From assembly GCF_029267515.1 (NCBI RefSeq), contig NZ_JAJUIS010000009.1, forward strand, positions 1 to 41,746: a stretch of DNA of 41,746 nt, in the 5' to 3' direction. The notes under the pieces were generated by a model. The model did not search any database, was not told where the DNA came from, and worked only from the letters and a program-made list of their open reading frames with translations. Shown here in pieces: positions 7,787-20,205 of the stretch (the stretch's first letter is position 1; the number at the start of each line of letters is the position of its first letter). This DNA comes from Seleniivibrio woodruffii (GTDB lineage Bacteria; Chrysiogenota; Deferribacteres; Deferribacterales; Geovibrionaceae). Position numbers and translations under genes: made by a program.

Positions 7787-8923
7787 ATGAACGGCGAACG
7801 TGCGGACAGCTTTCTGCGGATGATAAAACAGGCTCAGAGAGGCAGGCTGAAGATATATCTAGGCTATGCCGCTGGGGTCGGCAAGACATATAAGATGCTT
7901 CAGGAGGCGCACAAACTCAAAAGCGAGGGCATCGACGTAGTGGTGGGCTATGCGGAAACACACGGACGGAAGGAAACGGAGGCTCTTCTTGAAGGGCTTG
8001 AAACCGTTCCGCAGATAAGCATGAGCTACAGGGGTATTGACATTTATGAAATGGACACGGCGGGGATAATGACCCGCCGTCCAGAGGCGGTCATTGTTGA
8101 CGAGCTTGCGCATACCAACATCCCCGGCAGCAGACACGCGAAACGCTGGCAGGATGTGGAGGAACTGCGGACGGCAGGGATACACGTTATATCGGCGCTG
8201 AACGTTCAGCACATAGAAAGCCTTTACGACACCATAGAGAAGCTGACCGGAGTGAAGGTGAAGGAACGCATACCTGACAAGGTCGTTGCAGATGCAGACC
8301 AGATAGTAAACGTTGACGTGACCGCAGAGGATCTGCGCCAGAGACTTTCCGAGGGCAAGGTATACATCGCCGAAAAGATCGAGGCTGCTCTGGAAAACTT
8401 CTTTCGGGTCAACAACCTTGAGCACCTGCGTGAACTGACCCTTAGGGAGCTTGCGGCGCACATAGATTTCAGACAGAGGGCAGCGGAAAAAGATGAAATG
8501 ACCGCCAACCCAGATCAGGTAATGGTTTGTCTGAGCTCCAAAGGACCAAACAGCGGGATGCTGCTGAGGTACGCTTCGAGACTGGCGGGAAAGCTGAACC
8601 GCAACTGGTACGCTCTTTATGTGGAAACCTCCAAAGAGAAACCGGAAAAGATAGATGCCCGCACCCAGCGTCTTCTGGGTGATACGCTTGAACTGGCACA
8701 GGAGCTTGGAGCAACCGTATACACATACAGAAGCGACGATATTGTCGGAACCATACTGAAGTTTGCGGAAGAACACCGTGTCGGACATATTGTCATTGGC
8801 TCTCCCGGAAAAAAACTGCCGTACTGGAAACGTGTACTTGGCGACGTGGGGCTTGCGGAAAAACTTATAAACGCCAGCCAAGGGGAGAATATCGTGGTTT
8901 TGAACACACAGAGAAATTTATAA
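7787..8923 (+). CDS. kdpD: Short KdpD: sensor and USP domains only, no kinase
   Basis: 378 residues. The N-terminal KdpD domain carries the Walker-type loop GYAAGVGKTYKML at about 26-38 and the conserved DELAHTN and SALNVQHIESL segments. A universal-stress-protein-like domain occupies about 245-378. It ends there: the four membrane helices, GAF and histidine kinase domains of full-length KdpD (about 900 residues in E. coli) are absent, and no downstream frame restores them. Such stand-alone KdpD N-domains occur next to kdp genes in other bacteria. The domain may sense nucleotide or potassium status and act on the separate kinase encoded at 1718-3538; that partnership is inferred. Confidence 0.92.
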   Translation: MNGERADSFLRMIKQAQRGRLKIYLGYAAGVGKTYKMLQEAHKLKSEGIDVVVGYAETHGRKETEALLEGLETVPQISMSYRGIDIYEMDTAGIMTRRPEAVIVDELAHTNIPGSRHAKRWQDVEELRTAGIHVISALNVQHIESLYDTIEKLTGVKVKERIPDKVVADADQIVNVDVTAEDLRQRLSEGKVYIAEKIEAALENFFRVNNLEHLRELTLRELAAHIDFRQRAAEKDEMTANPDQVMVCLSSKGPNSGMLLRYASRLAGKLNRNWYALYVETSKEKPEKIDARTQRLLGDTLELAQELGATVYTYRSDDIVGTILKFAEEHRVGHIVIGSPGKKLPYWKRVLGDVGLAEKLINASQGENIVVLNTQRNL

Positions 8924-9188
8924 CGCAAACTGTGCCTCAAATTACCTATTTTACAGACGAAATTAAAGTTTTTTATCTGCATTCAGTTGCATATATGACA
9001 ATAAAAAGGGCTTCATCCCGCTTATAAATAATTCGTTTATTATTGCAATAATGTCTGCTACCCTGATCTTAGTTCAATGCCTAACAGGCAGCCCCCTCCC
9101 ACACAATGGCTGCACCGGTTCTACATACCGTTATTCCCGCTTCACCCATACTTCACCGGTTTGCGTTTAAAATTAATCAATATTTTAC
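8924..9188. other. Intergenic region between the kdp and oxide-reductase loci
   Basis: No convincing ORF and no clear terminator. It contains a perfect 14-base palindrome ATTATTGCAATAAT at 9039-9052 that could be a regulator site. The decamer TTATTATTGC within it (9037-9046) recurs before the response regulator at 13334-13343 and before hipB. Confidence 0.4.
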
Positions 9189-9216
9189 TTGATACGTTCC
9201 GGCATATGCTTATATT
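9189..9216 (+). promoter_or_regulatory. Candidate promoter for the kinase-reductase operon
   Basis: TTGATA (9189-9194), 16 bases, then TATATT (9211-9216). Start of transcription would be near 9223, about 20 bases before the chosen ATG. Confidence 0.45.
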
Positions 9217-9241
9217 AAGCAGGGGGAATTTTAGTTTTACC

Positions 9242-10609
9242 ATGAATATAATAAGCAAATCACTACGTTTCAGGATTGTTCTTGTGTTCTGCGGGTTCAG
9301 CATACTTCTGGGCACCGCAATATTCGCAAGCATCCTTATTTCCACCAAATATACTGAACAATACGCCCTTAAAAAAAGACTTCAGTTGGAAACAGAGAGA
9401 TATATAGAATCAATAACCCGTTCTCCTGTTTCCCCCGTTGCTTTCGGTTCGGAAATACCCGTGCCCGACTCACCTTATATGACCAGCTATCTAGGTGAAG
9501 ATCTTATGCCTGAATGGGCAGCAAAGCAGCTTTTACATCTTAAAGCCGGAAACTACGAAAAACAGAACGACAAACAGAACTACTATATAGCAATAAGAGA
9601 TCTGCCGGACGGTCAGCGGTTTTATCTGCTTTTCAACGTCACCACACTGCTGAACGACCACAGCACCATGAACATCATAAGGGAATATCTGATGATAACC
9701 CTTCTGCCAACTTTTATAATAGGGTTGCTGCTCGGCGTGATAACAGCATACAAGGCAGTTTCTCCTGTTGTGAGGCTCACAAAGATAGTTAAGACCAAGG
9801 ACGAAACCGGAGTGCTGCCGAAAGATATGGCAAAAAAATTTGAAGACGACGAGGTAGGCTTCCTTGCAACAACCCTTGAACATGCCATACGCGAGATGCA
9901 GGCTGCTATAGACAGGGAAAAGGCTTTCGCAAGGGACGCAAGCCACGAATTGCGTACACCGCTGACTGTTATGCAGGGAGCCATAAAGATACTATCCGAT
10001 GATATACGAGACGATGATTTCAAAAAGCAGAATCTCCTTGCACGCCTGAAACGCGCCGCGATGAATATGGAACATCTGATAAACTCGTTTCTCTGGCTTT
10101 CCAGACAGGAACGTAAAGATACCTACGGAACAAGCAGGGTAGCCGAGGTTGTCAGGGAATGTATAGATAACAACAGCTACCTCATGCGCAGCAAGACAAT
10201 CTCCGTTTCGGTGGAGGAATATGAGTCCGTTACGCTTCCAGTTGCTCCGGAGATATTGACTATTATATTAGGCAACCTTATCCGCAACGCCATGACATAC
10301 ACCCAGCACGGAGAAATAGTAGTATCCATATACGGTCCATGTATATCCGTCAGGGATTCCGGCCCTGGGATACCGCGGCATGTCCTTGACAATATAAATG
10401 TTGTGGGCGGCGTTTCAAAGGCGGACGGGTTCGGGTTCGGGCTTTCCATAGTGCACAGGATGTGCTCGCAGCTCGGATGGAGACTGAATATCCAGTCTGA
10501 AGAAGGCAAAGGAAGCACAATTATATTATGTTGTGACAAAAACGGAACGGATAAAATTAAATGCCCCGGCATATGCAGACCGGCGGCGGTTGACGGGGGA
10601 ATTATATGA
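9242..10609 (+). CDS. Membrane histidine kinase of the S/N-oxide reductase locus
   Basis: 455 residues from ATG 9242. An upstream in-frame ATG at 9077 would add 55 residues without a signal-like character, so the start MNIISKSLRF followed directly by the first membrane helix (about 10-35) is preferred, although the purine-rich ribosome site is 14 bases away. A periplasmic segment and a second membrane helix (about 148-170) precede a HAMP-like linker. The phospho-acceptor motif is ASHELRTPL with H235. ATPase motifs are NLIRNAMTYT, DSGPGIP and GFGFGLSIV. Its stop overlaps the start of the molybdoenzyme gene (ATGA at 10606-10609), tying sensor and enzyme translation together. The OmpR-type regulator at 13371 is the probable partner. 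Confidence 0.88.
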   Translation: MNIISKSLRFRIVLVFCGFSILLGTAIFASILISTKYTEQYALKKRLQLETERYIESITRSPVSPVAFGSEIPVPDSPYMTSYLGEDLMPEWAAKQLLHLKAGNYEKQNDKQNYYIAIRDLPDGQRFYLLFNVTTLLNDHSTMNIIREYLMITLLPTFIIGLLLGVITAYKAVSPVVRLTKIVKTKDETGVLPKDMAKKFEDDEVGFLATTLEHAIREMQAAIDREKAFARDASHELRTPLTVMQGAIKILSDDIRDDDFKKQNLLARLKRAAMNMEHLINSFLWLSRQERKDTYGTSRVAEVVRECIDNNSYLMRSKTISVSVEEYESVTLPVAPEILTIILGNLIRNAMTYTQHGEIVVSIYGPCISVRDSGPGIPRHVLDNINVVGGVSKADGFGFGLSIVHRMCSQLGWRLNIQSEEGKGSTIILCCDKNGTDKIKCPGICRPAAVDGGII

Positions 10610-12981
10610 ATATCGACCGCAGAGAATTTCTGCGCATGGCGGGCGCTGTAGCCGCAATGATAGCCTGCAATCCGGAGGCGCTTGCCGCCGGAGACAGAGT
10701 GATAACCCATGCAACACACATGGGACCCCTGAAAGCACATATAAAAAACGGGAAAATCGTGCGTATCGAAGCTATGGATATAGATCTGGATCCTGTAGAT
10801 CTGCTCTTCGCACAAAAGGACGCAATATATGCCAGAAACAGGGTGCAATACCCCTGCGTTCGTAAAAGTTATCTGGACGGCAGCGACAGAAGACATCTAC
10901 GAGGCGCGGAAGAGTTTGTGCGGGTTGACTGGCAGACGGCGCTTGACCTTGTAGCAGAGGCGCTGGCAAATACAAAAAGCGAATACGGAAACGAATCGAT
11001 ATTCAAAACTACATATGCCAGATGGGCTCACCCCGGACGGATACATCAGGCGTCTTCGCTTCAGGGAAGGATGCTTGGGCTCTTCGGCGGATTCACAGAT
11101 ATTGTCGGCGACTATTCCGCAGGCGCGGCGACACAGATACTCCCGCACGTCATGGGCGACATAGAAGTCTACAGCCAGCAGACATCCCACGAGGTTGTTC
11201 TGGACAAGACCCAGCTCATCATCATGTGGGGAGCGGATCCTTTCAAGACAAACAAGGTTGACTATCACGTGCCAATACACACAGGCAGCGAATGGTTCCG
11301 TAAGATGAAGAAAAAAGGAATCAAGTTCGTAACTATAGACCCCACGAAAAACAGCTCAATCGAAGCTATAGGAAGCGAGTGGGTACCGATAAAAGCAGCC
11401 AGCGACGTACCGATGATACTCGCCATGTGTTATACTCTGTACAAAGAGAACCTGTACAACAGGAATTTCATAAACAAGTATACGGTAGGGTTCGACGTAT
11501 TTCTGAAATATCTCCGCGGCGAAAAGGACGGCACGGTCAAAGACGCAAAATGGGCGGAGAAGATATGCGGGGTACCCGCCCAGAAGATAAAAGAACTGGC
11601 GCGGATGGCGGTTAAACACAGAACGCTGGTAACAGGAAGCTGGGCACCGCAAAGAGTTCAGTACGGAGAACAGTTCCACTGGAGCCTCGTTGCTCTCGCC
11701 TGCATGATAGGTCAGATAGGACTTGCTGGCGGCGGAATATACTTTAACATCCACTACTGCAGTGCGGGCACTCCGTACACGGGAGCGGGGATACCTCTTA
11801 TGCTGTCCCAGGGACGCAACCCTGTGAACATACTTATTCCGGCGTCGCGTATGTGTGAAATGCTGCTGAATCCCGGCAAGACTATCGATTACAACGGGAA
11901 AAAACTGACATATCCAAACATAAAGCTCATCTATTCCGCAGGGGTCACACCCATAGGGCACCAGCCGAACGTTAACAAGCTCATCGAAGGCTTCCGTAAG
12001 GTTGACACGGTAATAACTCATGAACCATGGTGGACGCCCACCGCCAGATACTCCGATATAGTTCTGCCGGCAACAACAAGTTTCGAGCGTAACGATATCA
12101 CCTTCGGCTCATCATACGGAGTGGAGTATGCTTTTGCCATGAAACAGCTTATAACACCGATGTTTGAAGCTCGGAACGATTACGACATTTTTCTGGAACT
12201 TTCAAAACGGTTCGGATTCGAGCGCGCCTTCACCGGTGGCAAGTCTGTGAACGAATGGATAAAATGGAGCTATTCAAAAATGCGTACCAACGTCAGCTTT
12301 GAAGAATTCTGGAAAAAAGGGTACGTCCATTTCAACGCACCGAAATCAAGCAAAGAATATGTTCGCCATGCGGATTTCCGCAAAGATCCGGTGGCAAATT
12401 TTCTCCGTACGCCGTCTGGCAGGATAGAGCTTTTCTCTGAAAAAGTCGCCTCTTTCGGGTATAACGACTGCCCCGGTCATCCTGCATGGATAGAACCGCA
12501 GGAGGGACCCGCGTCGTACATGGCAAAACGCTACCCTTTCCAGCTTATAACGCCGCACCCGACGCACAGGCTCCATTCCCAGCTCGACAACACCCAGCTT
12601 GCGGCTTCGCACAAGGTTGCCGGACGCGAGCCGGTCTACATAAACAAATTTGATGCGCGCCGTCTCGGTCTGAAACACGGAGACACCGTTGAAATATATA
12701 ACTCCCGCGGAACCATACTTGCCGGAGTGTTCACTACGGACCGGATAACCAGAGGAGTGCTTGCTGTTGAAGAGGGTGCATGGTATGCAGCGGAAAACCC
12801 CACAAAAAACAATTCCCGATGTGTCTCAGGACAGGTGAACGTACTCACCTCCGACCGCCCCACATCCAGACTTGCACAGGCGATATCAGCCAACACCTGC
12901 CTTGTGGCGATACGCAAGGTCAGCGGAAAGCTGCCGCCTAACACAGCATATGACAGCCCGCCTGTCAGGGAGAGACTGTAA
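10606..12981 (+). CDS. TorA/DorA/BisC-type molybdopterin S- or N-oxide reductase
   Basis: 791 residues. A twin-arginine signal (RREFL at about 5-9, cleavage near AAA-GD) sends the folded enzyme to the periplasm. There is no N-terminal four-cysteine iron-sulfur motif, as expected for the TorA/DorA/BisC branch. The Mo-coordinating serine is in VGDYSAGAATQILP (S171), which closely matches GDYSTGAAQ of TorA and DorA. A tyrosine in TTYARW (Y137) may correspond to the DMSO-reductase active-site tyrosine. Other family segments are VVGxxEVYxQQTS-like, SDIVLPATTSFERND and the C-terminal EGAWY. The substrate could be TMAO, DMSO or another sulfoxide; sequence alone does not decide. The enzyme is encoded right after a histidine kinase and right before a small cytochrome c, its likely electron donor. 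No TorC-type multiheme quinol oxidase is present. Confidence 0.9.
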   Translation: MNIDRREFLRMAGAVAAMIACNPEALAAGDRVITHATHMGPLKAHIKNGKIVRIEAMDIDLDPVDLLFAQKDAIYARNRVQYPCVRKSYLDGSDRRHLRGAEEFVRVDWQTALDLVAEALANTKSEYGNESIFKTTYARWAHPGRIHQASSLQGRMLGLFGGFTDIVGDYSAGAATQILPHVMGDIEVYSQQTSHEVVLDKTQLIIMWGADPFKTNKVDYHVPIHTGSEWFRKMKKKGIKFVTIDPTKNSSIEAIGSEWVPIKAASDVPMILAMCYTLYKENLYNRNFINKYTVGFDVFLKYLRGEKDGTVKDAKWAEKICGVPAQKIKELARMAVKHRTLVTGSWAPQRVQYGEQFHWSLVALACMIGQIGLAGGGIYFNIHYCSAGTPYTGAGIPLMLSQGRNPVNILIPASRMCEMLLNPGKTIDYNGKKLTYPNIKLIYSAGVTPIGHQPNVNKLIEGFRKVDTVITHEPWWTPTARYSDIVLPATTSFERNDITFGSSYGVEYAFAMKQLITPMFEARNDYDIFLELSKRFGFERAFTGGKSVNEWIKWSYSKMRTNVSFEEFWKKGYVHFNAPKSSKEYVRHADFRKDPVANFLRTPSGRIELFSEKVASFGYNDCPGHPAWIEPQEGPASYMAKRYPFQLITPHPTHRLHSQLDNTQLAASHKVAGREPVYINKFDARRLGLKHGDTVEIYNSRGTILAGVFTTDRITRGVLAVEEGAWYAAENPTKNNSRCVSGQVNVLTSDRPTSRLAQAISANTCLVAIRKVSGKLPPNTAYDSPPVRERL

Positions 12982-13325: not shown

Positions 13326-13370
13326 TATTTTCGTTATTATTGCGTAGAAACGCAAATGGAGCGCCATAAA

Positions 13371-14075
13371 ATGAAATTCCTGCTTGTTGAAGACGATCTG
13401 GACATAGCGGAAAACATTATTGAGTTTATGGAAGGGCACGGGTTTGACATGGACTACGCCATGTCGGGCGAGCTTGCGCTTGAGCTTCTCAAGGACAATA
13501 TGTACGACGCGGTTATCCTTGACATAAACCTTCACGGCATAAACGGATTCGAGGTCTGTTCAAGGATACGGCGGATCATGAGGCTCAAGATTCCAGTACT
13601 GATGCTCACCGCAAGGATACTGATCGACGACAAAATAAACGGATTTGAATGCGGTGCCGACGACTACCTTACAAAGCCTTTCGACCTTGAAGAGCTGCTC
13701 ATACGTCTGAAAGCGCTCTCAAGACGATTCCGCCAGTGCGTCACAAACGTGTTTACCGTTTCAAACCTCAGCCTTGATCCGGAAAAAGGCACAGTGGAAA
13801 GAGCGGGCGATTCCATCACCCTGCCCCATGTCTGTTTCCGCATACTGCTCAGACTGATGGAGAAATCGCCAGGTATTGTCTCAAAAGAGGAGTTGGAATA
13901 TGACATATGGAAGGATCAACCCCCTGTAAGCAACTCACTCAAGTCACATTTCTATATACTGCGGCAGTTGGTGGACAAACCTTATGAAAAACAGCTGCTC
14001 CACAGCATAAGGGGACGCGGCTATAAAATTGACGATAATCACATAGAAACGCAGTGCGACAGCGATCAAATATAG
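13371..14075 (+). CDS. OmpR/PhoB-family response regulator
   Basis: 234 residues. The receiver domain begins MKFLLVEDDLD with phospho-acceptor D51, the conserved TAR and KPF signatures, and a C-terminal winged-helix domain ending in the RGRGYKI motif. ATG 13371 is chosen because GGAG lies eight bases upstream and the encoded start matches the family; ATG 13356 lacks a ribosome site. It lies after the kinase, reductase and cytochrome genes and just before the porin/DmsAB operon, so it probably acts with the kinase at 9242 and may control both reductase operons. The operator motif ATTTGACCA found before this gene and before the porin gene fits that idea but does not prove it. Confidence 0.9.
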   Translation: MKFLLVEDDLDIAENIIEFMEGHGFDMDYAMSGELALELLKDNMYDAVILDINLHGINGFEVCSRIRRIMRLKIPVLMLTARILIDDKINGFECGADDYLTKPFDLEELLIRLKALSRRFRQCVTNVFTVSNLSLDPEKGTVERAGDSITLPHVCFRILLRLMEKSPGIVSKEELEYDIWKDQPPVSNSLKSHFYILRQLVDKPYEKQLLHSIRGRGYKIDDNHIETQCDSDQI

Positions 14076-14249: not shown

Positions 14250-15677
14250 ATGAGAAAAATACTTTCATGTATTTTTATGCTGGCTCTGGGTGCCGGCAGC
14301 GTTTTTGCCTCCGGACTTGATGATGCGGACTATACGACTCCCGAAAGCTGGCAGGTGCACACCACGCCGCAGGGGATAACCAAGACCGCAAACGGACACA
14401 AGTTCGGCGACGGCACTCTGAACGTTTCTCTCACATCGCGGTACAAACTGCTGGACAATGATTATCAGTCTGACCAGAACTTTTATCAGTATCTGAAAGC
14501 GGACGTTACAAGTGTTTCAGTGGGACAGGGTACCATGTCCGGCGTTTTATTCATGCGTGCCGGAAAAGACATTGACGGCGACGGCGGATACAAGCAGTCC
14601 GGACGCTACTATTTCAGAGACGACATACTTGATGCAGAGGACAGCGGTTGGGCGGTCAGAATGTATCAGGGCTTTCTGAAATTCTCAGGTGTCGTTAAAA
14701 ACACCAACGTAACCATCGGAAACCAGTATGTGACACACATCGACACCATCCATATGAACGGTATCGACGGCGACGTGACACTTCTGAACGACAGACTTAC
14801 TGTGTATGCCTTCGGCGGGCAGCCGGACACCTTCTATCTGGACGACAGCGACTCCAAAGCTGCGGGAACCGGCTTTGTTGCAAAGCTGACTGACAGACTT
14901 AAACTCTCTTCCGGCTACACCTATGTGGATATGGAAGACGAGAGTTCGGATATCTATAAACTGCGGGCGGACTATAACTACGCAAAAGGCAGAGTATCCG
15001 GCGAATACGGCAACACAGACGGAAACAGTTTCTACACCGTTGACGGTGTGTACAGAAACAGCCCAACAAAAACGACGCTCTCAATCTCTTTCCAGCAGCT
15101 TCTGGACGAGATAGGCAAGGGCGAAGGAACCTACATCACAAACCCAATAACCTATTCGCTCTCACCATACGGAAAATACACCAAAGTGAAGGCTAAGGTT
15201 TATCAGGGACTTGGAAAACATATGGCTGCGGGCTTAGGAGCAGAGGTTAAAAACAGAACCGGAGAGGACACTCTCGACAACAGAAGCTATGTCAAATATT
15301 CCGGCAATCTTGACTTTATAGGGCTTTTCACACCCGACACCTTCCTTTCGCTCACAGCGGACTACTGGAACATTGCAGAGAGCATCGACACAGAGGAAAA
15401 CTCACAGGTTGTCTTCGGCGGCGAGCTTACACAGGTTCTTTCAGACAAAACCAACCTCTGGCTCGGTTCAAGATTTAACAGGTTCGAATATGATCTCGAC
15501 AACGGAACGGAAAAGAACTGGGTTCGCGAGGTATATCTCGGCGGCGAGCACAAATTCAATGAAAGAGCGGCTCTCTCTCTTGATATGAGCTACGAGAACA
15601 GCGAAATACTCAAAGACCTGAACACCGACCTTGAACAGAACTACAGCGTAGAGCTGTGGGTCAGTCTTGCAATATAA
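14250..15677 (+). CDS. Outer-membrane beta-barrel protein of a porin-cytochrome reductase operon
   Basis: 475 residues with an 20-residue Sec signal (MRKILSCIFMLALGAGSVFA). The mature part is a chain of alternating polar/hydrophobic stretches with aromatic girdle residues, rich in Y, G, D and N and lacking long hydrophobic helices, as in outer-membrane barrels. No heme or iron-sulfur motif is seen. A strong ribosome site AAAGGAGG precedes the ATG. A multiheme cytochrome follows ten bases after the stop, then dmsA and dmsB. By analogy with the Shewanella dmsEFAB operon, which pairs a multiheme cytochrome with an MtrB-type barrel, it may form a conduit or a substrate pore; it is clearly shorter than MtrB and lacks its N-terminal CxxC. 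The specific family was not recognised. Confidence 0.75.
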   Translation: MRKILSCIFMLALGAGSVFASGLDDADYTTPESWQVHTTPQGITKTANGHKFGDGTLNVSLTSRYKLLDNDYQSDQNFYQYLKADVTSVSVGQGTMSGVLFMRAGKDIDGDGGYKQSGRYYFRDDILDAEDSGWAVRMYQGFLKFSGVVKNTNVTIGNQYVTHIDTIHMNGIDGDVTLLNDRLTVYAFGGQPDTFYLDDSDSKAAGTGFVAKLTDRLKLSSGYTYVDMEDESSDIYKLRADYNYAKGRVSGEYGNTDGNSFYTVDGVYRNSPTKTTLSISFQQLLDEIGKGEGTYITNPITYSLSPYGKYTKVKAKVYQGLGKHMAAGLGAEVKNRTGEDTLDNRSYVKYSGNLDFIGLFTPDTFLSLTADYWNIAESIDTEENSQVVFGGELTQVLSDKTNLWLGSRFNRFEYDLDNGTEKNWVREVYLGGEHKFNERAALSLDMSYENSEILKDLNTDLEQNYSVELWVSLAI

Positions 15678-15687
15678 GGCGGATACC

Positions 15688-16155
15688 ATGAAATATGTAA
15701 TATCTATAATGTTCTGCCTGATATGTATGACAGTTTTCGCATATCAGACATCAAAACCGGAAACACACGACAACATGTGGATGAAACAGCACGGCGCGGA
15801 AAGCAAAGCAGACCCCGCATCATGTCTGGACTGCCACGAAAACCGTACGTCCTGCATAAAATGCCACAACGACACAGCGCCAAGAGACCATAACGCGTCT
15901 TTTAAACGCAAAACCCACGGTCTGAAAGCACAGTGGGACAGAGACAAATGTCTGGCATGTCACACTGAGGCGAGCTGCTTCGCATGTCACCAGAACTCCG
16001 CTCCGATATCACACAGGGGCGACTGGGGCGGCACAACAAGCACAAACGACAAAAACCTGCATTGCAGAAGCGGCTGCCATTATCCGGTGCAGGAAACAAC
16101 ATGCGGAACGTGCCACATGACATCGCACGGACCCAGAGAACTGTTCGGTAACTAA
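15688..16155 (+). CDS. Periplasmic six-heme cytochrome c
   Basis: 155 residues from ATG 15688 (AAGGCGG upstream). A longer in-frame start at 15667 would overlap the porin end and blunt the signal peptide. The signal peptide covers about residues 1-19. Heme sites occur as three pairs: CLDCH (46-50) with CIKCH (56-60), CLACH (88-92) with CFACH (97-101), and CRSGCH (126-131) with CGTCH (139-143). The fifth has three residues between the cysteines instead of two. Additional histidines (for example H64-H68 region, H109) could be distal ligands. Its place between the barrel protein and DmsA suggests it carries electrons to the reductase in the periplasm. Confidence 0.85.
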   Translation: MKYVISIMFCLICMTVFAYQTSKPETHDNMWMKQHGAESKADPASCLDCHENRTSCIKCHNDTAPRDHNASFKRKTHGLKAQWDRDKCLACHTEASCFACHQNSAPISHRGDWGGTTSTNDKNLHCRSGCHYPVQETTCGTCHMTSHGPRELFGN

Positions 16156-16166
16156 GGGAGGCAAAC

Positions 16167-18869
16167 ATGTCAGTAATGGACAAACAACGTATTGATAAGG
16201 CAATGGACATCTCCAGAAGAACATTTGTTAAATGGAGCGCACTGCTCGGAGCAGCCGCAACTGTTGGCTGCGGTTCCATGGGCGGTTCGGACAAAATAGA
16301 CGACGACTACGACAGCTCGGATACTGTTATCGAACCTAAAAATTTCGACTACGACAAGGCGGTATGGTCTGCGTGCAACGTTAACTGCGGAAGCAACTGT
16401 CCGCTCAAACTCTACGTTAAAGACGGCGTGGTTGTCCGCGTCAGCTCCGACAACGAATCAGACGATACATACGGCGCATACGGCGCAAGCTATCAGATGC
16501 GCTCCTGCGTGCGCGGACGCTCCGTCCGCCAGCGTATCTATAACGCGGACAGGCTTAAATACCCCATGAAGAGAGTATCCGGCAGCCCCAGAGGTGCGGG
16601 AAAATTCGAGCGAATCTCATGGGATCAGGCTATCAGCGAAATAGCCGCCAAGATGCAGTCCGTTAAATCAAACTATGGTCCCGGCTCATTCTATATCCAG
16701 TACGCGACAGGTACAATATGCGGCAAAATGTCATGCTCATGGCCGCCCGCATCAACACCTATGGCAAGACTGCACAACCTCTGGGGAGGATGGCTTGACC
16801 ATTATTCGGACTATTCCACCTCACAGATAACAGCAGAACTCTGCCTTCTGGAAGGAACAAGCTGGAGCAACAACACCATCACCGACGCAGTGAACAGCAA
16901 CCTTGTGGTTATGTGGGGAAACAACCCCGCGAACACCAGAATGGGTTCCGCGAAACACTTTACATATCACCTGCTCAAGGCGAAAGAGGCAAACCCCGAC
17001 CTTAAATTCATCGTGGTTGACCCCTATTACACAGACACGGCTATTGCACTTGAAGCTGACTGGATTGCGATCCGCCCCGGAACAGACTCAGCTCTGGTTG
17101 CCGGCATGGCGAACTATCTTCTCAGCGAAGGGCTTATTGACGAATCATGGATAGACGCGCGCAGCATCGGCTGGAGCGAAACTTCACTCGCAGGCGTGGT
17201 CGAGGTTACGGCAGGTGCCGAGAGCTACTATGAACCCGCATATGACAAAGCATGGGGTAATACTGACTCAACAGAGCCTGCAATACCCGCTAACAGCTCA
17301 TATAAATCTTACATCCTCGGTCTCGGAACAGACGGCGTGGTAAAAACACCCGCATGGGCGTCCGCCATAACAGGTATCCCCGAAGAGACTATTAAATCCT
17401 TCGCAAAACAGCTCGTTAACCAGTCACCCGCGATGGTTATTCAGGGCTGGGGTCTCCAGAGACATTCACTCGGCGGAGCAAACTCCAGAGCAGTTGGTCT
17501 GATAACCATCCTCACCAAAAACATCGGTATCGTCGGCGGCGGTTCAGCGGCAAGAGAAGCGGCAGCGTCTGTCTCCATCAGCATGGACGGCTGGTCCAGC
17601 ACCTTCCCCGCAAACCCCGTAAGCTACACCATCTCCAACTTTGCATGGCCGCAGGCTATCAAAGACAACACCGTTATGACCGGAAGAAACTGGGGCGTTC
17701 GCGGACTCGCAACACAGGATACGGCACTTCCCCTGCCCATCAAGTTCATATGGAACTACGCAGGCAACTGTATGCTGAACCAGCACGCGGACGTTAACAG
17801 CACTATGACGATGTATAAAGACGAAAACCTCCTTGAGTGCATCGTTACCATCGACAACTATTTCACTCCGTCAGCAATGATATCCGACTACATCCTGCCC
17901 GACTGTACGAACTTCGAACAGAACGACATGTCCACCAACGAGGGCGGAAACACATGCGACATCAAGTTCCAGAACAAAGCTGTAGAGCCCATGTTCGAGT
18001 GCAAGACCATTTATGAGATGATGTCGCTGATTTCAGAAAAAATAGGCATCAAAGCCGCATACACTCAGGGCAAAACTCAGGACGAATGGCTTGAATACCT
18101 GTTCAACCAGTCACTTACAAACTACGGCGATCAGGGAGTGTTCACATCCGCTCTCGGTCAGGACACATATGCAAAATGCTATGCGAAAGGTCTGATAAAA
18201 CACGTCAGCACAACAGCCGTGCCTTCTGTGGCATTCAAAGACTTCGTCGCAAGCCCGACCACAAAAAGAGTGTCAACTCCGTCCGGCAAGTTTGAGATAT
18301 TCTCAAAACGTCTCTACAACCTCAAACACCAGTGGCAGTTCCCCGCAGTATACAACGACGGCATGGACAAAATAACCCCTCTGCCCGAATACTACGCGGC
18401 ATGGAGCGGCTATGAAGACCCCGCAAGAACAACCTATCCGTTTCAGGTTGTAGGATTCCACTATAAACAGAGAACCCACTCAACCTATTACAACTGCGAA
18501 TGGAACAGGGAAGCCAGTATGCAGACGGCATGGATAAACACTCAGGACGCACAGACCCTCGGCATCGCCCACGGCGACACAGTTGAAATATACAACGCCA
18601 ACGGCAAGGTGCGCATCAAAGCTAAAGTGACTTCCAGAGTTATGCCCGGAGTAATCGGTCTGCCTCAGGGCGCATGGTATAACCCCGGCGGCAAATGGTA
18701 CAGCAGCGATATCGTGCACTCAGGCACTCTCTCAACATCTGAAATAGGCAACACCGACGTTGTGGACTACGGCGGGTGCATGAACGTCCTCACCAGCCTC
18801 CGTCCCGGACCCGTGTCAAAAGGCAACTGTCAGCACAGCGTTCTCGCTGCCGTTAAGAAAGTAGGCTAA
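16167..18869 (+). CDS. dmsA: DmsA-like molybdopterin oxidoreductase, catalytic subunit
   Basis: 900 residues, longer than E. coli DmsA (about 814). Twin-arginine signal SRRTFVKW at about 16-23. The N-terminal [4Fe-4S] motif is C70-x3-C74-x3-C78-x35-C114. The Mo ligand serine lies in HYSDYSTSQI (S217), the DmsA/YnfE signature. The end of the signal reads ATVGC with C35, compatible with a lipobox, so the enzyme may be a lipoprotein. GGGAGG precedes the ATG at 16167. DmsB follows after ten bases. Likely substrates are DMSO, TMAO or an oxyanion such as selenate handled by YnfE-type enzymes; the sequence does not decide. It receives electrons through DmsB, and the neighbouring cytochrome probably replaces the absent DmsC. 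Confidence 0.9.
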   Translation: MSVMDKQRIDKAMDISRRTFVKWSALLGAAATVGCGSMGGSDKIDDDYDSSDTVIEPKNFDYDKAVWSACNVNCGSNCPLKLYVKDGVVVRVSSDNESDDTYGAYGASYQMRSCVRGRSVRQRIYNADRLKYPMKRVSGSPRGAGKFERISWDQAISEIAAKMQSVKSNYGPGSFYIQYATGTICGKMSCSWPPASTPMARLHNLWGGWLDHYSDYSTSQITAELCLLEGTSWSNNTITDAVNSNLVVMWGNNPANTRMGSAKHFTYHLLKAKEANPDLKFIVVDPYYTDTAIALEADWIAIRPGTDSALVAGMANYLLSEGLIDESWIDARSIGWSETSLAGVVEVTAGAESYYEPAYDKAWGNTDSTEPAIPANSSYKSYILGLGTDGVVKTPAWASAITGIPEETIKSFAKQLVNQSPAMVIQGWGLQRHSLGGANSRAVGLITILTKNIGIVGGGSAAREAAASVSISMDGWSSTFPANPVSYTISNFAWPQAIKDNTVMTGRNWGVRGLATQDTALPLPIKFIWNYAGNCMLNQHADVNSTMTMYKDENLLECIVTIDNYFTPSAMISDYILPDCTNFEQNDMSTNEGGNTCDIKFQNKAVEPMFECKTIYEMMSLISEKIGIKAAYTQGKTQDEWLEYLFNQSLTNYGDQGVFTSALGQDTYAKCYAKGLIKHVSTTAVPSVAFKDFVASPTTKRVSTPSGKFEIFSKRLYNLKHQWQFPAVYNDGMDKITPLPEYYAAWSGYEDPARTTYPFQVVGFHYKQRTHSTYYNCEWNREASMQTAWINTQDAQTLGIAHGDTVEIYNANGKVRIKAKVTSRVMPGVIGLPQGAWYNPGGKWYSSDIVHSGTLSTSEIGNTDVVDYGGCMNVLTSLRPGPVSKGNCQHSVLAAVKKVG

Positions 18870-18879
18870 GGAGGATAAG

Positions 18880-19494
18880 ATGAGCAAACAGTACGGATTC
18901 TATATAGACACAAAACACTGTACAGGCTGCAAAGCGTGCTTTGTCGCATGTAAGGACAGGCAAAACCTGAACTCCGGCGAAAAATTCAGAAAAGTATACG
19001 AATTTTCAGGCGGCACATGGAGCGACACGGACGATAACGCTTTCAGCAAAAACGTGTTCGCCTTCTACGTCTCCATGTCGTGCAACCAGTGCGACAACCC
19101 CGCTTGCCTCAACGTCTGCCCGGCAGGCGCTTATACAAAGAGAGAGGCGGACGGCATCGTCGTTTACGACGCTTCAAAATGTATATCATGCTTCGGCTGC
19201 CAGAATGTATGCCCATACACAGCCCCCGTTTACGACTATCAGGCGCAGCACATGAAAAAATGTATCATGTGCTCTGATGAAAAGAACTCAAACGGTATCC
19301 CCGACCCCGCATGTGTGAAGGCTTGCCCCTCAAGGGCGCTGGACTTCGGCGAAATCGAGGAACTGAAAGCGAAATACGGTGCCGCGAACACCGTTGCCTC
19401 CTTCCCGGCGACAACAAACCCCAACGCAGTCTTTAAGCTCCATAAAGACGCGTCTTCCGGTTCCGTTGTCATGAACAAGGAAGAAGTATTCTGA
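18880..19494 (+). CDS. dmsB: DmsB-like four-cluster iron-sulfur subunit
   Basis: 204 residues, the same length as E. coli DmsB. Sixteen cysteines in four groups bind four [4Fe-4S] clusters: C14/17/20/24, C68/71/76/80, C101/104/107/111 and C128/131/145/149. There is no signal peptide, so it is presumably exported by hitch-hiking on the Tat signal of DmsA. AAGGAGG lies before the ATG, ten bases after dmsA. It relays electrons to the molybdenum subunit. No dmsC follows; instead a hairpin and a chaperone gene come next. Confidence 0.95.
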   Translation: MSKQYGFYIDTKHCTGCKACFVACKDRQNLNSGEKFRKVYEFSGGTWSDTDDNAFSKNVFAFYVSMSCNQCDNPACLNVCPAGAYTKREADGIVVYDASKCISCFGCQNVCPYTAPVYDYQAQHMKKCIMCSDEKNSNGIPDPACVKACPSRALDFGEIEELKAKYGAANTVASFPATTNPNAVFKLHKDASSGSVVMNKEEVF

Positions 19495-19504
19495 TAAGTT
19501 TTCA

Positions 19505-19529
19505 GGCAGGGGTCTTTTGCACCCCTGCC
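19505..19529 (+). other. Strong intercistronic hairpin between dmsB and the chaperone gene
   Basis: GGCAGGGGT (19505-19513) pairs perfectly with ACCCCTGCC (19521-19529) around a seven-base loop. No T run follows, so it more likely protects or processes the dmsAB mRNA, or partly attenuates the chaperone gene. Confidence 0.7.
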
Positions 19530-19554
19530 CCCTATTCACCTAAAGGATTAAACT

Positions 19555-20205
19555 ATGAACACAACAGAGAACAGAGTGTTTGCAGACAGCGAAAAATACC
19601 TTGAAGCAATGGCAGCATTCAGCTTTTTCAACAAAGTGCTGCTGGATGCACCCGAAAGGGAATATATAGAAGCAGTCAAAGAGAGTGCTGCTCTTTTTGA
19701 CGAATGGTGCTTTCAGAAAAGCACTGAATCACTCGCCGGGCTGGCGATGCTGAAAAATTATCTTAAAAATTATAAAGATGAAGATTTCGGAGAGCTTACG
19801 GACAATTTCAATAAACTTTTTATAGGTCCCGGACACCTCTTCGCTCCGCCATGGGAATCCGTCTACAAAGAGCAGGACCACACCATATTCGGCGAGGCGA
19901 CCCTTCAGGTCCGTGCCAGATACAGAAAATTCGGACTGGAAATAAACAACCTGAACAAGGAACCGGACGACCACATAGCTTTCGAATGTGCGTACCTTAA
20001 CTACCTTTGCGCCGCCGCAGCGGCATCGGAGGATACAGCGGAAAAAGAAGAGATAATCTCTTTTCTCACAGCACACCCCGCAACTTGGGTGGATGAGTTT
20101 ACAGATAAGATGACAGAAAATTCAGCAACGGATTTTTATAGAGGAATAGCAAGTATGCTGAGAGGCGCCGTTAAAGAGGCGCTTTCCGGTTTATCCTGTA
20201 GGTGA
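19555..20205 (+). CDS. TorD/DmsD-family molybdoenzyme chaperone
   Basis: 216 residues, all-helical, without signal peptide or metal motifs. The segment LFIGPGHLFAPPWESVYKEQD (about 88-108) is the TorD/DmsD signature, and IAFECAYLNYLC near 145 is the second conserved helix. AAAGGA precedes the ATG. These cytoplasmic proteins bind the twin-arginine signal of their partner and hold it until the molybdenum cofactor is inserted. As the only such gene in the window it may serve both the DmsA-like and TorA-like enzymes, although its position at the end of the dms operon points first to DmsA. Confidence 0.9.
   Translation: MNTTENRVFADSEKYLEAMAAFSFFNKVLLDAPEREYIEAVKESAALFDEWCFQKSTESLAGLAMLKNYLKNYKDEDFGELTDNFNKLFIGPGHLFAPPWESVYKEQDHTIFGEATLQVRARYRKFGLEINNLNKEPDDHIAFECAYLNYLCAAAAASEDTAEKEEIISFLTAHPATWVDEFTDKMTENSATDFYRGIASMLRGAVKEALSGLSCR

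Follow-up and report, generated by a model that had tools for sequence, protein, structure and literature searches.

How is a DMSO reductase-type enzyme supplied with electrons if its genes lie without a membrane anchor beside those of an outer-membrane barrel and a small multiheme cytochrome? This question is raised by an operon of Seleniivibrio woodruffii located on a stretch of 41,746 nucleotides (contig NZ_JAJUIS010000009.1, positions 1 to 41,746), which we refer to as the window. The five genes had been described as tightly packed, and this holds, all five open reading frames lying on one strand. The operon and the genes preceding it are as follows:

9077 to 10609, + strand: histidine kinase; four-base overlap with the torA-like gene; start codon uncertain
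10606 to 12981, + strand: TorA/BisC-family reductase without TorC; bisC_fam 957.8 bits, below its cut-off
13356 to 14075, + strand: OmpR-type response regulator, directly upstream of the operon; homologues beside conduit operons
14250 to 15677, + strand: outer-membrane beta-barrel; 475 aa, signal peptide, 22 predicted strands, no plug domain
15688 to 16155, + strand: small multiheme c-type cytochrome; 155 aa from ATG, five CXXCH, one CX3CH
16167 to 18869, + strand: DmsA-type molybdenum catalytic subunit; Tat signal, lipobox-like TVGC, TIGR02166 above cut-off
18880 to 19494, + strand: DmsB-type 4x[4Fe-4S] subunit without signal peptide; TIGR02951 213.2 bits
19555 to 20205, + strand: TorD/DmsD-type chaperone; PF02613 E 5.5e-31

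The catalytic subunit passes TIGR02166 (892 bits, cut-off 778) while DmsB stays 0.9 bit short of the cut-off of TIGR02951 (214.1); both are related to the E. coli subunits with 42% (DmsA) and 49% (DmsB) identity. For the cytochrome, ATG 15688 is the likely start, the listed TTG 15667 overlapping the barrel gene. The protein had been predicted to carry six hemes, of which five are accounted for by CXXCH motifs; a sixth would be present only if the CX3CH site (CRSGCH) binds heme. In several sister proteins this site reads CXXCH, and its His is missing from one group of relatives.

The response regulator is the probable regulator of the operon, and a neighbourhood comparison shows its homologues adjoining conduit operons at loci L033-L036 and L038. 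The kinase is likewise conserved beside conduit operons, and kinase and TorA-like reductase are co-conserved: both occur with a response regulator near conduit operons at L035, L038 and L067, and kinase and TorA are found at L080. These relatives encode 3' of torA a protein of 172-178 aa that is absent in the window, the L038 copy having one CXXCH. Further upstream, behind kdpABC, KdpD (7787-8923) is a sensor domain alone (378 aa) with no kinase domain in the open reading frame.

Linkage and kinship of the barrel-cytochrome pair

By joining a cytochrome search of 118 genomes with a barrel-profile search of 60, we found the cytochrome gene directly 3' of the barrel gene, on the same strand and at a distance of -4 to 81 bp, for all 50 full-length barrels, which come from 24 genomes; five cytochromes in the joined list were without a full-length barrel match. 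The outcome that would have spoken against the original prediction, i.e. the barrel being a general porin occurring independently of the cytochrome, did not occur, and a free-standing porin is ruled out by this linkage and by the window barrel having no Pfam match. Neighbourhoods of 17-20 kb usually contain the pair together with a Tat-type molybdenum reductase and a DmsB-like protein, often also with a chaperone. The reductase genes come first in family f6, and at two f6 loci diheme proteins replace the reductase, one of them showing a weak MtrC/MtrF-domain match. In the gene-order check proposed earlier, the order barrel-cytochrome-reductase recurs across the bacterial order and therefore far beyond chance. 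Matches in named genomes comprise three loci, the close ones belonging to Seleniivibrio sp. S2C1195 and UBA6793, and no plasmid relatives of the system were found.

The neighbourhoods hold several further elements. An orphan conduit (L038:7033-8942) consists of a barrel-cytochrome pair without reductase, followed by a radical-SAM-sized protein and a chaperone. Many conduit-reductase operons have nearby a radical-SAM protein that adjoins a chaperone of the TorD type (L041:3667-4974, L034:968-2233); these two, which were the ones scanned, gave weak HxsC/viperin-type matches, and proteins of like size are encoded at L035, L038, L042-L044, L050 and L069. At L044:12840-13307, directly 3' of a different reductase and its DmsB, lies the N-terminal part (155 aa, signal and Cys included) of a DmsA of the window type with about 54% identity, possibly a remnant of reductase replacement.

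By the tests run, the barrel is not of the MtrB type and the cytochrome not of the decaheme MtrA/DmsE type; the original prediction had noted a barrel shorter than MtrB and a cytochrome that is no decaheme MtrA. TIGR03509 (MtrB/PioB family) is absent from the window genome and its order, and hhalign of the barrel against an MtrB returned 0.6%, ruling out MtrB kinship; the cytochrome, with its 5-6 heme sites, does not match TIGR03508 (DmsE-family decaheme) at E 0.1. The window barrel has no Pfam or NCBIfam match, its homologues showing stray weak Pfam matches only, and profile searches against PDB sequences gave nothing useful. The barrel does match, with 95.8% over 316 columns, one encoded in a multiheme cluster of the window genome, and the cytochrome adjoining that cluster barrel matches the window cytochrome family (98%). 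This cluster (L058:3-9395, contig C14) encodes 24-, 8-, 7-, 7- and 8-heme proteins besides the related barrel of 414 aa. A homologous barrel in another phylum adjoins a 13-heme cytochrome, of which residues 175-299, the C-terminal half, align with the window cytochrome (99.7%, 35% identity), suggesting the latter to be a minimal form of a 13-heme conduit-type cytochrome. The structure model of the barrel shows 22 strands and no plug (pLDDT 74); its best Foldseek matches are 18-strand OprD-type channels at TM 0.4-0.5 in a search that retrieves many barrels and is undiscriminating. The AlphaFold model of the cytochrome, built without hemes, reaches just pLDDT 51 and is of no use.

Export signals and probable electron entry

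Wherever the N-terminus of a linked reductase is readable, it shows a Tat RR followed 18-19 residues on by a lipobox-like Cys (18 in the window DmsA), the residue after the Cys (position +2) being Gly, Ser, Thr or Glu and in no case Asp. Such a Cys is missing from four of five TorA controls, the exception being the window TorA (10606-12981). In contrast to its four homologues, this protein contains MIAC, with the Cys close to where a lipobox would be expected, and could be a lipoprotein, unless it is simply cleaved at ALA-A. At the position of the presumed DmsA Mo ligand, nearly all linked reductases have Ser, pointing to chemistry of the S/N-oxide type, and one has Cys; the E. coli segment guiding this alignment agrees with the K-12 record.

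The absence of a DmsC anchor, predicted from the window, extends to the genome: PF04976 was found neither in the window genome nor in 11 relatives in a profile search with a positive E. coli control, which rules out a dmsC homologue elsewhere in the genome. Elsewhere, the window genome encodes NrfD proteins and a multiheme protein of the NapC/NirT type. Since GspD and a NapC/NirT-type protein are present in all 12 genomes tested and NrfD is missing from two conduit-rich ones, a NapC-type dehydrogenase would be the best common electron entry. Genome G002, which has no conduit, also possesses GspD and a NapC-type protein, so that the two permit the model rather than demand it.

Shared conduits and poly-G tracts in relatives

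Where a relative has several conduits in one genome, these show 97-100% DNA identity whereas their reductases share just 23-55% of their protein sequence. The four tandem operons of G007, on a single contig, have barrels of 97-99% and cytochromes of 98-100% DNA identity, and their reductase genes are 99-100% identical over the first 53 codons and 55-64% over the remainder. In four dispersed operons on the single contig of G023, barrels and cytochromes are 97-99.8% identical and the genes for reductase, DmsB and chaperone 38-65%, and in G008 a conduit of 97-99% identity accompanies a reductase that is unrelated (23% identity in protein). The homogenised tract starts in most pairs at most about 30 bp from the barrel start and ends near reductase codon 55, near the reductase start or at most ~80 bp past the cytochrome stop. 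Quick trees, with long-branch warnings, group the conduits by genome (4 label changes, the minimum) and let the catalytic subunits pair across species as orthologues (17 changes, equal to the shuffled mean). As the conduits are near-identical repeats, draft assemblies break at them: two reductase contigs of this genome begin with the same cytochrome end, one contig ends in a barrel start behind genes for response regulator, histidine kinase and TorA, and at least seven of eleven partial barrel matches in G016 lie at contig ends. Judged from these sequences, the conduit appears to be a general module whose near-identical copies in relatives serve many different reductases.

Recent copying of a barrel-cytochrome(-signal) cassette beside resident reductases, instead of repeated conversion, would account for the sharp tract bounds and for some copies being tandem. 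We regard it as the less probable course of events, although a serious one, because a given reductase lineage is linked to conduits in more than one genome, so that the conduits probably predate the species split, and because the grouping of conduits by genome is seen independently in several genomes. Gene conversion and cassette copying are both recombination, and both yield the modular reading.

In family f6, which probably represents the Mucispirillaceae, 25 reductase genes of six genomes carry a run of G8-G10 right after the lipobox-like export signal, the lengths being read from mostly draft or metagenomic assemblies. In five of these genes signal and reductase body share one frame; in the other 20 the body is shifted exactly at the run but stays open as far as the flank was read (at least 491 aa). 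All four homogenised operons of G023 carry the run, one of them in frame. Selenocysteine was considered for the headless f6 reductase reading frames and is ruled out, the frameshift at the G tract being the cause. For two pairs of orthologues with both members out of frame, dN/dS is 0.13-0.14, and for a third, with one member out of frame and one in, 0.26, all without internal stops, indicating that these genes are kept by selection and are not decaying. No poly-G tract is present in the window operon or the other f1 loci examined. Overlapping counts of G8 matches, most tracts of which lie outside reductase loci, amount to 75-142 per genome in G023, G037, G042, G036 and G016 compared to 5-29 in f1 genomes. 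G9/C9 runs also occur inside the barrel gene of diheme-type conduits (L047:7467, L046:10270), which may themselves be phase-variable.

Poly-G slippage resulting in phase variation of the f6 reductases looks like the best explanation, and poly-G tracts of this pattern are usual for surface molecules. Assembly errors or dead genes could produce the same frameshifts, as homopolymers in mostly draft or metagenomic genomes are open to miscalls; we judge this unlikely, because 25 genes of six genomes share the run at one and the same junction, the shifted bodies remain long and open with low dN/dS even where both orthologues are out of frame, and G023 holds 104 G8 matches (about 50 tracts) where by our own estimate base composition predicts 1-2.

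Probable location of the reductase, known systems and implications

The original prediction of a new porin-cytochrome reductase system recalling that of Shewanella is supported by the barrel-cytochrome linkage, the absence of DmsC and parts unlike MtrB and DmsE. We consider it likely that the operon encodes a conduit across the outer membrane from which DmsAB, as a lipoprotein at the cell surface, receives its electrons, a system similar in function to DmsEFAB and built from a different conduit. According to this model, menaquinol would be oxidised by a NapC/ImcH-like multiheme quinol dehydrogenase encoded elsewhere and replacing DmsC; electrons would pass via a periplasmic cytochrome to the cytochrome held in the barrel and from there through DmsB to the Mo site of DmsA, which would reduce an S- or N-oxide or a related oxo-compound outside the cell. 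The model draws on the invariable linkage of the pair, the match of the cytochrome to half of a conduit-type 13-heme protein beside a homologous barrel, the kinship of both proteins with an adjacent pair in the genome's own multiheme cluster, and the plugless 22-strand barrel model. Support also comes from the Tat-Cys signal of the linked reductases and its absence from most TorA controls, the dihemes standing in for the reductase at two loci, conduit sequences being independent of the reductase served, the presence of GspD and a NapC-type protein in all genomes tested, and the poly-G tract at the export signal of relatives. Against it stand the short cytochrome with one CX3CH site and a poor structure model, the Foldseek preference for OprD-type channels, and the Cys near the lipobox position of the window TorA.

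The alternative is a periplasmic DmsAB. The small cytochrome, of a size suited to a soluble shuttle, would bring electrons from the quinol dehydrogenase to DmsB, and a bulky S- or N-oxide would enter through the barrel, for which Foldseek prefers substrate channels of the OprD type; molybdenum reductases with periplasmic cytochrome donors are common. Such an arrangement is unlikely in our view, since a channel for substrates would be expected to diverge along with the enzyme it supplies, yet barrels of 97-99% DNA identity accompany enzymes differing by up to 77% in protein sequence, and since barrel homologues adjoin 13-heme conduit-type cytochromes and the reductases bear a lipobox-like signal.

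Placing the operon as a surface conduit allows comparison with known systems. DmsEFAB of Shewanella oneidensis, an extracellular DMSO/iodate reductase present in several copies per genome in some Shewanella (PMC9048795, PMC9732548), likewise combines a barrel, a multiheme cytochrome, DmsA and DmsB without DmsC. It uses a decaheme DmsE and an MtrB-type DmsF, whereas the cytochrome of the window has 5-6 heme sites and the tests run show no relation of its barrel to MtrB. Homologues of DmsA and DmsB are shared, and the presence of GspD and of the lipobox-like signal would permit export of the reductase to the outer face by type II secretion; the window operon is in our reading one that works like DmsEFAB yet is not a member, its barrel and cytochrome failing the tests. 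The Geobacter Ext and OmcBC conduits (PMC6148476) consist of a periplasmic multiheme cytochrome, a barrel of 18-21 strands and a redox lipoprotein. By gene content the operon is a conduit of this kind, with a multiheme cytochrome with signal peptide, the barrel, and, as the putative lipoprotein, a reductase with Tat signal and lipobox-like Cys; the outer component in Geobacter is a multiheme cytochrome and here mostly a molybdenum enzyme. The omcBC duplication has identical oma/omb genes (PMC6148476), a precedent for homogenised conduits. E. coli DmsABC differs in having DmsC and no lipobox, barrel or cytochrome, DmsC being absent from the window genome. Phase-variable surface genes of Campylobacter (PMC8355987) likewise contain an intragenic G homopolymer shifting the frame; these are surface genes, while in the relatives described here, and not in the window, putative respiratory reductases are affected.

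G023, with four conduit-linked reductases, is probably Mucispirillum schaedleri, which would connect the system to the gut. PMC5285517 reports for this member of the same order an uncharacterised DMSO-reductase-like system raised in inflamed mice, a possible counterpart of these loci. The system is not described in the parts available of papers on Deferribacter, Mucispirillum and termite-symbiont genomes, and we found no paper on homogenised conduits with apparently phase-variable reductases.

Extracellular respiration by the DMSO reductase family is, as far as we found, characterised in Shewanella and near relatives, with a conduit of the MtrAB type. The existence in another phylum of a further conduit, apparently of unrelated origin and with a cytochrome of half the usual size, would show to what small dimensions a trans-outer-membrane wire can be reduced, and identical conduits beside unrelated reductases make conduit-enzyme compatibility testable by gene swaps. 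The surprising part is the combination of homogenised conduits with apparently phase-variable reductases in relatives. We tentatively propose, with slightly less than even confidence, that gut members of the order combine a standard conduit, homogenised by recombination throughout the genome, with varied reductases, each randomly switched by a poly-G tract behind its export signal, as a contingency repertoire for surface respiration. If the tracts really switch, phase variation, familiar from surface antigens, extends to respiration itself and may have a bearing on the inflamed gut, and if the proposal is true, gut populations would always hold cells ready for different external electron acceptors.
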